Part shown: positions 3,450 through 5,765 of the stretch, one piece after another
How positions within the stretch are numbered: position 1 is the first letter of the stretch
Layout of the letters: every line of letters begins with the position of its first letter
Assembly (NCBI RefSeq): GCF_003427025.1
Contig: NZ_QVAI01000001.1
Location: 62,001-126,000 of the forward strand
DNA from: Jiangella endophytica
GTDB lineage: Bacteria > Actinomycetota > Actinomycetes > Jiangellales > Jiangellaceae
DNA: 64,000 nt
Direction of reading: 5' to 3'
The notes under the pieces: generated by a model
Told to the model about the DNA's origin: nothing
Database searches by the model: none
Seen by the model: the letters and a program-made list of their open reading frames with translations, nothing else
Translations under genes and position numbers: made by a program

Positions 3450-3630
3450 GATGGTGCCCCCTTGCCGAGTTCGAAGCCGGTGGTGTGGCGGAGGCTACGC
3501 CGGTGCACGGACAGAACGCCGGCCGGGCGCTCGCGGTCAGGGCACCAGGCCGTCCCAGGTCAGCGGGTGGACCGGCCTCTTCGCGCGTTCGCCAGCGCTG
3601 CCGCCACCGGCTGTGTCATGATCAGCCGCG

Positions 3631-4494
3631 ATGAACATGAGTCTCACTAGCAACATATTCGGTCAAACCGACCTGACCGATCGCCGGCCGCTCACGGCGC
3701 AGGACATTACTGCGTCGGTGGGTGACGTGTACCGCGATCTGGCGGCGCGCGACGATCTCCGGCCGGGGCCGGAGGTCGACGGGTTGTTCGGCCGGCTCGT
3801 CCGGCTCGTCCTCACCGCTCCCGCCGAGACGGTGCCGGCCGTGCTGAACGACGTCGGTGTCCAGCAGCTCGCGCCCCGCCTGCGGGCCCTCTGCGCGCAA
3901 GGGGAGGGCGAGCTGGAGCACGCCTGGGCGAAGCGGATCGTGGCCGGGTGCCCGCCGCGCGAGGAGCTGGCCCGGTTCCCGTACTTCGGCAACTACCGCC
4001 AGCTCAGTCGCATGGAGATCGGCATCCTCGCGTCCGCGCTGCCGCGCCGCGTGCGGTCGGTGGCGTTCGTCGGCTCGGGGCCGCTGCCGTTGAGCTCGCT
4101 GTACCTGGCCGGTGAGCTGGACGCGTCGCTGGACAACTACGACCGGGACCCGGTGGCGCTGACGGCCGGCGCGCGGGTGGCGGGCGCCCTCGGGTACGGC
4201 GAGCTCGGCTTCCACGAGGCCGACGTGCTGGACGCGGACCTCTCCGGCTACGACGTGGTCGTGCTGGCCGCGCTGGTCGGCGACACCCTCGAGGCCAAGC
4301 GGCGGATCCTGGGCCACCTGGCCGGCACGATGCGCCCGGGCGCCGTCCTGCTCGCCCGCAGCGCCCGCGGCCTGCGCACGCTGCTCTACCCGCCGATCGA
4401 CCGGACCGCGCTCGACGGGTTCGAGCCGCTGACGGAGGTGCACCCGGTGAACGACGTCATCAACTCCGCCATCCTGGCCCGGGCGGGAGGCTGA
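3631..4494 (+). CDS. nicotianamine synthase-family protein
   Basis: 287 residues matching the nicotianamine synthase fold in order: a helical N-terminus with the GEGELE acidic stretch (91-96, where the family's catalytic Glu lies), the FPYFGNYRQL motif (116-125), the SAM-binding loop FVGSGPLPLSSL (146-157) and DNYDRDP (168-174). Family enzymes condense aminobutyrate units taken from SAM, alone or onto another amino acid (plant nicotianamine, archaeal thermonicotianamine, the staphylopine enzyme CntL). Length fits the bacterial single-domain type. Bacterial members normally sit beside an opine dehydrogenase; here the partner is an ATP-grasp ligase that starts 2 nt after this stop. A weak CATGAT box 8 nt before the ATG hints at leaderless transcription. 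Product identity is inference. Confidence 0.85.
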   Translation: MNMSLTSNIFGQTDLTDRRPLTAQDITASVGDVYRDLAARDDLRPGPEVDGLFGRLVRLVLTAPAETVPAVLNDVGVQQLAPRLRALCAQGEGELEHAWAKRIVAGCPPREELARFPYFGNYRQLSRMEIGILASALPRRVRSVAFVGSGPLPLSSLYLAGELDASLDNYDRDPVALTAGARVAGALGYGELGFHEADVLDADLSGYDVVVLAALVGDTLEAKRRILGHLAGTMRPGAVLLARSARGLRTLLYPPIDRTALDGFEPLTEVHPVNDVINSAILARAGG

Positions 4495-4496
4495 CC

Positions 4497-5765
4497 GTGG
4501 CGACGCTGCTCATGGTGGAGAGCTGGGTGCAGTCGACGGGGCTCGCGCTGCCGCCGCTGCTGCGCGAACTGGGCCACGACTACATCCTGTTCACCAAGGA
4601 TCCCGCGCTGTACCCGGACGTCGACGGCGAGCGGCACCCGGTGGTGCGCGGCGCCGACGAGGTGATCGTCGTCGACACCAACGACCGGGCCGCGATGACC
4701 GGTGCCGTCATCGGCATCGTCTGCCGGCGCCGCATCGACGGCGTGCTGACGACGTGCGACTACTACCTCGACGCGGTCGCCGAGCTGGGGCGGATGCTCG
4801 GGCTCGCCGGCGCGTCGCCGGACATCATGCGGCGGGCGGTGCGCAAGGACGCGGTACGGACGGTGCTGAAGCGGGCCGGGCTGCCCGGCCCTCGGTTCGC
4901 CGTCGCCGCGACGTGGGACGACGCCCTGGCCGGCGCCGCGGACCTCGGGTTCCCGCTGGTCGCGAAGCCGGTCGACCTCAACTCCGGCACCTCCGTGCAC
5001 CTCGTCGACGGCGAGGCCGCACTGAAGGACGCGTTCTACGAGGTCACGGGCGTCGAGCGGAACACCCGCGACCAGCCGCTGGCCCGCCGGCTGCTGCTGG
5101 AGGAGGTTCTGCGGGGTCCCGAGGTCAGCGTCGAGGCGGTCACCATCGCCGGGCGCACGACGGTCCTCGGCATCACCGGCAAGAGCGTGACGCCGTCGTT
5201 CGTCGAGGCCGGGCACGTGTTCCCCGCGCCGCTGCCGGCGGCCGTCGCCGCCGACGTGACCGAGCACGTCCGGGCGGCGCTGTCGGCGATCGGCTACACG
5301 CACGGGCTGAGCCACACCGAGCTGCGCCTGACGCCGGCGGGCCCGCGGATCGTCGAGATCAACCCGCGGCAGGGAGGCGGCTACGTGTTCGACCTGGTCC
5401 GCACCGTCACCGGGGTCGACCCGCTGGCGCTGCTGGTCGACCTCGCGCTCGGCCGTGCCCCTGAGCTCGACCTGCGGCCGGCCGGGACCGCGGCGGTCGC
5501 GTTCGTACTGGCGCCGGTCGACGGCATCGTCACCGGCGTCGACGGCCGCGACGAGCTGGACTCGAACCCGGCGGTCGCCCGCTGGCAGCTCGACGTGCCG
5601 GGGCCGGTGCGCCGGCCGCGCGACAACAACGACCGCGTCGGCCACGTGCTCGCGGTCGACCCGGACGGCGACCGCGCCGGCGAGTTGGCCGCCACCGCCG
5701 TCGGCTCGCTGACGTTGCGCCTCGCCGGCGGCGACGTCGTCACCCCGCTCCCGATCGGCGTCTAG
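4497..5765 (+). CDS. ATP-grasp domain ligase
   Basis: 422-residue ATP-grasp enzyme of the carbamoyl-phosphate-synthase/BL00235-like class. Residues 1-100 form the pre-ATP-grasp domain, FPLVAKPVDLNSG (about 150-162) carries the ATP-binding Lys, EVSVEA (about 208) is the lid strand, and EINPRQGGG (about 286) holds the Mg-binding Glu and Asn. Such enzymes join a carboxylate, as acyl phosphate, to an amine. The GTG start is fixed by the GGGAGG ribosome-binding site at 4484-4490 and a 2-nt spacing from the nicotianamine-synthase-like gene, implying translational coupling. The natural inference is that it amidates or conjugates the aminobutyrate product of its neighbour. No transporter gene lies beside it. 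Confidence 0.85.
   Translation: MATLLMVESWVQSTGLALPPLLRELGHDYILFTKDPALYPDVDGERHPVVRGADEVIVVDTNDRAAMTGAVIGIVCRRRIDGVLTTCDYYLDAVAELGRMLGLAGASPDIMRRAVRKDAVRTVLKRAGLPGPRFAVAATWDDALAGAADLGFPLVAKPVDLNSGTSVHLVDGEAALKDAFYEVTGVERNTRDQPLARRLLLEEVLRGPEVSVEAVTIAGRTTVLGITGKSVTPSFVEAGHVFPAPLPAAVAADVTEHVRAALSAIGYTHGLSHTELRLTPAGPRIVEINPRQGGGYVFDLVRTVTGVDPLALLVDLALGRAPELDLRPAGTAAVAFVLAPVDGIVTGVDGRDELDSNPAVARWQLDVPGPVRRPRDNNDRVGHVLAVDPDGDRAGELAATAVGSLTLRLAGGDVVTPLPIGV

Follow-up and report, generated by a model that had tools for sequence, protein, structure and literature searches.

Which product can be expected from a nicotianamine synthase (NAS)-like gene that is followed, in the place where an opine dehydrogenase gene would be looked for, by the gene of an ATP-grasp ligase? 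The question is raised by two adjacent genes of the actinomycete Jiangella endophytica, located at 3631-4494 and 4497-5765 of the stretch of 64,000 nucleotides that was analysed and is here called the window (contig NZ_QVAI01000001.1, positions 62,001 to 126,000). To our knowledge, the bacterial metallophores of NAS type known so far all use an opine dehydrogenase. The pair is constant in the family Jiangellaceae, its NAS gene opens with a conserved element that resembles a Zur box, and relatives of its ligase stand in apparently metal-regulated clusters; the explanation favoured here, to which we give an even chance, is that a zinc-responsive NAS-ligase operon makes an amide-modified metallophore of nicotianamine type without any opine dehydrogenase.

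The NAS-ligase pair and its enzymes

The NAS gene (3631-4494, + strand) encodes a protein of 287 amino acids, whose residues 1 to 17-22 are without predicted structure, and its translation contains the motifs FPYFGNY, FVGSGPLPLSSL and DNYDRDP listed in a preliminary description of the locus. The ligase gene (4497-5765, 422 amino acids, GTG start) follows on the same strand after a gap of 2 nt and is provided, as that description had also stated, with its own GGGAGG; this likely ribosome binding site is located at 4485-4490 (+ strand), 6 nt ahead of the GTG. The two genes are a real coding pair, and chance is ruled out because the NAS is 70-92% identical in 11 other searched Jiangella genomes, in each of which the ligase is adjacent.

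Of the 22 Jiangellaceae genomes searched, that of J. endophytica included, 20 contain NAS, as against 0 of the 18 searched genomes from other families; the two Jiangellaceae genomes without the gene are 81% and 75% complete, and those with it include Jiangella, Haloactinopolyspora, and Phytoactinopolyspora. In all the 20 genomes, which belong to four genera, the ligase gene adjoins NAS on the same strand, starting 1-2 nt past the NAS stop codon in 19 of them and overlapping NAS by 16 nt in the remaining one, a spacing that implies a single transcript. Adjacency and spacing were determined by tblastn because the gene caller missed NAS in 4 of the 20 loci and placed an antisense open reading frame (ORF) over the ligase in 3. 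The neighbouring genes were examined over about 5-13 kb per side (3.6 kb upstream in the window), grouped by similarity and read by eye in representatives, with a Pfam scan of part of them, and they vary between the Jiangellaceae loci; the pair being constant and the flanks variable, the unit therefore consists of two genes.

Recurrence of the ATP-grasp partner in actinobacteria, which the preliminary description had left to a survey of gene neighbourhoods, holds for the 20 Jiangellaceae genomes and does not extend to the NAS loci found outside the family. In particular, a scan of named genomes, in which 45 of the best 80 candidate stretches were confirmed as encoding NAS relatives and which may not be exhaustive, gave at least 45 NAS loci; the ligase is present in 13/13 loci of Jiangellaceae (one of them a metagenome-assembled genome (MAG) placed there by the tree) and in 0/32 loci outside, within fetched flanks that reach up to 10 kb per side, are shorter in 8 of the 32, and comprise just 171 bases downstream in locus L088. 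Across 396 genomes sampled evenly from the phylum, PF03059 had matches in 5, including that of J. endophytica, and two of these were short partial matches. A viral origin of the pair was also considered and rejected, 36 stretches having matched the search pattern and none of them encoding a relative.

By profile and predicted fold, the product of 3631-4494 is a member of the NAS family, with aminobutyrate transfer as its predicted reaction. The protein matches PF03059 with 205.5 bits (E 1.3e-60, curated cut-off 27.1, profile positions 10-270 of 276), and the best structural matches of its AlphaFold2 model (mean predicted local distance difference test score, pLDDT, 89.1) are those to MtNAS (3fpg/3fpe, TM 0.79-0.80 by query and 0.86 by target), followed by CntL. 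Residues E96 and Y122 correspond to E81 and Y107 of MtNAS in an alignment that is ungapped across that stretch; we take E81 of MtNAS to be the catalytic base, and the equivalents of E81 and Y107 to be the catalytic residues. An E81Q mutant is named in the PDB title of 3fpg, and in a comparison of 46 NAS sequences all 46 have both the Glu and the Tyr. The profile match, the fold closest to MtNAS, and the retained catalytic Glu, on which the preliminary description made its assignment depend, are thus all in agreement with it. Its suggestion of a kinship with the staphylopine-type enzymes stands as regards membership of PF03059, while the likeness to the staphylopine enzyme itself is weak, the CntL equivalog NF033601 giving 20.4 bits, below its cut-off of 350, and archaeal MtNAS being closer. 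A staphylopine-type pathway was consequently rejected, as the CntL model fails and no CntM follows NAS; the misannotation of a methyltransferase was rejected too, the best methyltransferase model reaching 20.8 bits versus 205.5 for PF03059.

The product of 4497-5765 is, on the basis of domain profiles and modelled structure, an ATP-grasp ligase of the L-amino-acid-ligase fold, for which the ligation of an amino acid is predicted. The protein clears the cut-offs of ATP-grasp_4 (59.4 bits), LAL_C2 (52.3 bits), and ATPgrasp_N, and its model (pLDDT 94.1) finds its best match in the L-amino acid ligase BL00235 (3vot; Z 39.2, root-mean-square deviation 3.0, 392 residues aligned), to which it is 24% identical; BacD is also among the fold matches. 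K117, K157, E287, N289, and R291, presumably the residues that bind ATP and Mg, are invariant in 25 aligned rows. Identity with argininosuccinate lyase was rejected, the match to PRK02186 covering 4-394 of 890 with 204 bits, where 625 are needed.

In all the 20 Jiangellaceae genomes, the gene after NAS is this ligase and not a CntM opine dehydrogenase, which bears out, for the locus itself, the preliminary claim that no opine dehydrogenase is present. As regards the whole genomes, PF10100 gave 0 matches in the 20 with a positive control that was also silent, and over the 396 phylum genomes it gave one sub-threshold match, the control again being silent.

The element at the NAS start

A Zur-box-like element of 15 bp, TGAACATGAGTCTCA, lies at 3632-3646 on the + strand and overlaps the start codon of NAS. 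It is found in 20/20 Jiangellaceae genomes, exact in 14 and with one change in 6, and ATGAACATGAGTCTCACTA is likewise exact in 14 genomes and occurs as a 3-change variant in the remaining 6. In 14 genomes the element constitutes the in-frame start of NAS; synonymous codon identity, calculated for 14 genomes, is 0.97 in codons 2-13 versus 0.70 in codons 20-287, and the G+C content of the first 45 NAS bases is 44% versus 75% after them. By comparison of these sequences, the start element is constrained at the DNA level. In the 6 Phytoactinopolyspora loci (L034-L039; positions 9839-9916 in L038), the element opens instead a separate ORF of 25-52 amino acids (MNMNLI...) that runs up to the NAS start. 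Ahead of the element, the Jiangellaceae loci have, with exceptions, a TGTGnCANNAT-like stretch, which suggests an extended -10 promoter, predicted in the window at 3614-3622 on the + strand (TGT CATGAT), and a leaderless mRNA whose start would fall at about 3629-3631.

The Zur motif tGaNNatSatNNtCa is described as derived from 172 Zur-binding regions of Streptomyces coelicolor (PMC5472717). At the NAS start, TGAACATGARTCTCA agrees with this motif in 10 of its 11 fixed positions. When one mismatch is allowed, the window contains 3 sites versus 0.07 expected from shuffles, and one of them is the start element; among background windows of 300 nt, 0.9% of 2663 score at least 10/11. All the 13 named Jiangellaceae loci, which are related and not independent, score 10/11 at the NAS start or leader. 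In the genome of J. endophytica, a Fur-family gene is divergent from znuA with a Zur-type site, TGACAATGGTTGTCA, between the two, and this site also reaches 10/11; of 8 sampled znuA genes in a genus that we take to be Streptomyces, 7 have sites at 10/11 and one at 9/11.

Sites of the same type accompany NAS genes of other families. The NAS loci of Pseudonocardiaceae (L075, L077, L081, L083, L085, and L086) agree in 6 of 6 cases with 13-14 of 15 positions of a 21-bp actinobacterial Zur motif, at a background rate of 0.04% or less, the six loci being related to each other; their sites are located 42-117 nt upstream of the start of the NAS match, or just inside it in L077, and their flanks contain no ligase. 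A related element scoring 10/11 is present near the start of the Antribacter NAS. On these matches, Zur control of the NAS-ligase operon is likely, the start element being the candidate site at which Zur would bind.

The element was also used as a query by its own sequence. Only one other near copy of its 19-mer form is present in the J. endophytica genome, and a role as a genome-wide operator recognisable by its own sequence was rejected; with a single near copy, repetition of the element offers no basis for the link to Zur, which is drawn from the published motif. The znuA box, searched in the same genome, gave 89 + 69 matches versus 14 + 13 in the control, which are too many, and the regulon is therefore not definable from them.

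Ligase and NAS relatives in other clusters

The protein searches for the ligase scored, among the matches listed, 4 candidates per genome in the 396-genome sample and 7 in the 246 genomes of the genus taken for Streptomyces. In the former, at least 9 genomes, that of J. endophytica included, match the ligase at E 1e-40 or better; the closest outside ligases among the matches listed are 43-45% identical and belong to one genus, the same that is taken for Streptomyces, where the ligase occurs in at least 59 of 246 genomes (E 1e-100). In five relatives examined (L092-L096), the ligase is near or fused to a pyridoxal phosphate (PLP)-dependent enzyme of the PALP family. For the PALP enzyme of locus L161, the best-scoring model is that of SbnA, with 245 bits where the cut-off is 350. 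Its cluster includes DUF364, with a putative role in heavy-metal chelation, a transporter of the major facilitator superfamily (MFS), a permease, and a binding protein whose best-scoring model is the nickel NikA one, again with a score under the cut-off.

Of the 59 cousin loci, 30 were fetched, and SbnA-like and DUF364 matches are present in 30/30, together with a Zur-type site 67-128 nt ahead of the conserved ligase start that is weak in 3. The pattern used for these sites was a working Zur consensus, from which 27 of the 30 differ by at most 3 mismatches and 3 by 4; in each locus, 1% or fewer of 200 shuffles of the same upstream stretch equalled the site. The SbnA-like/DUF364 context and the Zur-type sites of the 30 loci therefore tie the ligase subfamily to a cluster of metallophore-like type, apparently under metal control, where the position of NAS is taken by an SbnA-like enzyme. 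We know of no description or name for this SbnA-like/DUF364/ATP-grasp cluster. Transporter genes (MFS and NikA-type ATP-binding cassette) were seen in L161-L163, and the cluster was also seen in L092 and in L169-L197; in most of these loci a Zur-type site is located upstream of the ligase.

Other observations concern NAS genes beyond Jiangellaceae. In Sorangium (L070 and L072-L074), NAS comes after an asparagine-synthetase-like gene in 4/4 loci and after a PhyH-type oxygenase gene in 3/4; downstream of the L070 NAS are genes that resemble, by eye, those of methylthioadenosine (MTA) salvage, which fits an NAS that consumes S-adenosylmethionine (SAM) in the wider group. An EamA-type transporter gene is divergent from NAS in Kineosporia rhizophila (L084, 7201-9099), and similar genes are near NAS in two other Kineosporia; we take the EamA type to be the exporter type of pseudopaline. 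Two further loci (L044, 703-1920, and L045, 701-1947) have two short ORFs in tandem, of which the second gives a PF03059 match and the first looks similar by eye; they precede ORFs that are FeoA/FeoB-like by eye, suggesting a link of NAS-like proteins with iron uptake. Finally, a haloarchaeal plasmid of 473 kb from Halocatena marina contains an NAS gene (L168, 7986-8750) with no ligase annotated beside it.

Product of the pair

On the explanation favoured here, NAS and ligase would form one leaderless operon, whose promoter would be shut off, as long as zinc is plentiful, by zinc-loaded Zur bound to the start element. When zinc runs short, NAS would move one or more 2-aminobutyrate units from SAM onto a starter amine, generating an aminopolycarboxylate of nicotianamine type; the ligase would activate a carboxylate as acyl phosphate at the expense of ATP and join to it an amino acid or a similar amine, with the formation of one amide bond, or, alternatively, it would attach an amino acid to an amine group on the chelator. 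Results of computation are the enzyme families and their catalytic residues, the constant pairing, the conservation of the Zur-like element, and the setting of the ligase cousins; the leaderless start, the control by Zur, the order of the steps, the substrates, the secretion of the product, and zinc as its metal are what we infer. An amide-bonded product, already proposed in the preliminary description, would fit both the ligase fold and the context of the cousins.

Several results weigh against this explanation, and a first group of them concerns the element and its counterparts. In the start element just 4 of 7 palindrome positions pair, a weak symmetry, and 10 of 15 bases are shared with the znuA site of the same genome. 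No site above background is present in 23 of the 32 outside NAS loci (11 Promicromonospora, 3 Myceligenerans, 4 Sorangium, 3 Kineosporia, and 2 MAG), and the sites of Isoptericola and of one Kineosporiaceae MAG are weak (9/11). Among 10 ligase loci searched with the published Zur motif at one mismatch, the site is present in 7 and absent from L093, L094, and L175; with the working consensus, a site at 3 mismatches is present in L163, which extends L094, and none in L162, which extends L093. The element might instead act in translation or as an RNA element of the leaderless transcript, with an operon that is not regulated by zinc, a reading that we consider unlikely. The poor palindrome, the single other near copy of the 19-mer, and the Phytoactinopolyspora loci, where the element begins the short ORF upstream of NAS, would suit such a role; against it stand the 10 of 11 matched positions of the Zur motif, the strong Zur-type sites at 6/6 Pseudonocardiaceae NAS loci, the related element of Antribacter, and the lack of any Rfam family match in the window and four relatives, by which a known RNA element was rejected.

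A second group concerns the surroundings and the descent of the pair. In the flanks of the 20 Jiangellaceae loci, no transporter cluster, for export or for import, is conserved next to the pair, in line with the preliminary description, which had noted the absence of a dedicated exporter, and an MFS-like gene (by eye) stands farther upstream in 6 of the 20; tblastn searches (E 1e-3) with the SbnA-like, DUF364, MFS, and binding proteins of the cousin cluster found none of them in these loci. The 32 outside NAS loci are without the ligase in their fetched flanks, and a tree of 46 NAS sets the paired sequences apart by one branch, with Promicromonosporaceae as their neighbours and with weak support (86/46). 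These data leave room for a scheme, in our judgement rather improbable, in which nicotianamine or a like compound, made by NAS, would serve as an intracellular metal buffer, and the ligase would add an amino acid only to store or inactivate it, without secretion. The absence of a transporter conserved next to the pair and the retention of NAS without ligase in Promicromonospora and others would be accounted for by intracellular buffering; however, a metallophore-type transport system accompanies the ligase cousins, and transporters serving the pair may lie elsewhere in the genome, the search having covered the flanks.

Still less probable is the synthesis of a signal or antibiotic dipeptide in place of a chelator, with the ligase building the dipeptide from a product of the NAS-like enzyme that would be azetidine-2-carboxylate or a short unit of aminobutyrate. 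For azetidine-2-carboxylate synthases, enzymes that cyclise SAM, ATP-grasp enzymes are mentioned among the products of neighbouring genes (PMC11794875). The presence of the dipeptide ligase BacD among the fold matches points the same way, but the protein is in PF03059 with the fold and residues of NAS, and metals are indicated by the Zur-type element and by the DUF364 and SbnA-like genes that surround the cousins. That the two genes merely travel together, with the ligase serving an unrelated reaction, agrees with the 32/32 outside NAS loci without ligase as far as their flanks reach, but is very improbable in view of the adjacency in 20/20 genomes of four genera despite changing neighbours and of a spacing of 1-2 nt or overlap that implies one transcript.

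The amide-modified metallophore proposed here can be compared with known systems: by function it is like an aminopolycarboxylate metallophore pathway, and by identity it belongs to the NAS family and not to the opine cluster. The opine-type zincophores (staphylopine, pseudopaline, and bacillopaline; CntL/CntM) are alike in the NAS-family aminobutyrate transfer from SAM, in the short biosynthetic core, and in the zinc-linked control of the known cases, but they have the CntM dehydrogenase where the Jiangellaceae pair has an ATP-grasp ligase; moreover, the Jiangellaceae NAS reaches just 20 bits on the CntL model (350 needed), and no conserved exporter or importer is adjacent to it. The plant, fungal, and archaeal NAS (PF03059; MtNAS) share family, fold, and the catalytic Glu and Tyr with the Jiangellaceae enzyme, which in contrast is bacterial, has a Zur-like start element, and is coupled to a ligase. 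The L-amino acid ligases BL00235, BacD/YwfE, and RizA have in common with the Jiangellaceae ligase the ATP-grasp fold and the LAL_C2 domain, whereas the latter is tied to an NAS gene and is 24% identical to BL00235. The SbnA-like/DUF364/ATP-grasp cluster has a ligase 43-45% identical and a Zur-type promoter site, but a PLP-dependent SbnA-like front end instead of NAS, and MFS and NikA-type transporter genes that the Jiangellaceae flanks are without.

In the literature, a published map of opine-type zincophore clusters started from the opine dehydrogenase and says that zincophores made without it would escape such a search (PMC7438024), and actinobacterial NAS genes are mentioned in work on their horizontal transfer to plants (PMC12454661). 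No description of NAS with an ATP-grasp ligase was found in the open PMC literature, in accordance with what the preliminary description had assumed; the Zur-type element at the NAS start codon and the link with the cousin cluster are new with respect to it.

If the metallophore reading is true, the pathway is small and clonable, and the NAS-ligase operon of 20/22 Jiangellaceae genomes, together with the cousin cluster of at least 59 of 246 genomes, would represent a new chelator class. More tentatively, with a chance somewhat short of even, the amide-bonded zincophore would be a third finish for NAS-derived metallophores, and one ligase subfamily would serve interchangeable NAS and SbnA-like front ends under Zur-type promoters, giving a modular class of aminopolycarboxyl-amide zincophores in actinobacteria. 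The pair is, in addition, relevant to the bacterial relatives of the NAS gene present in plants and fungi.

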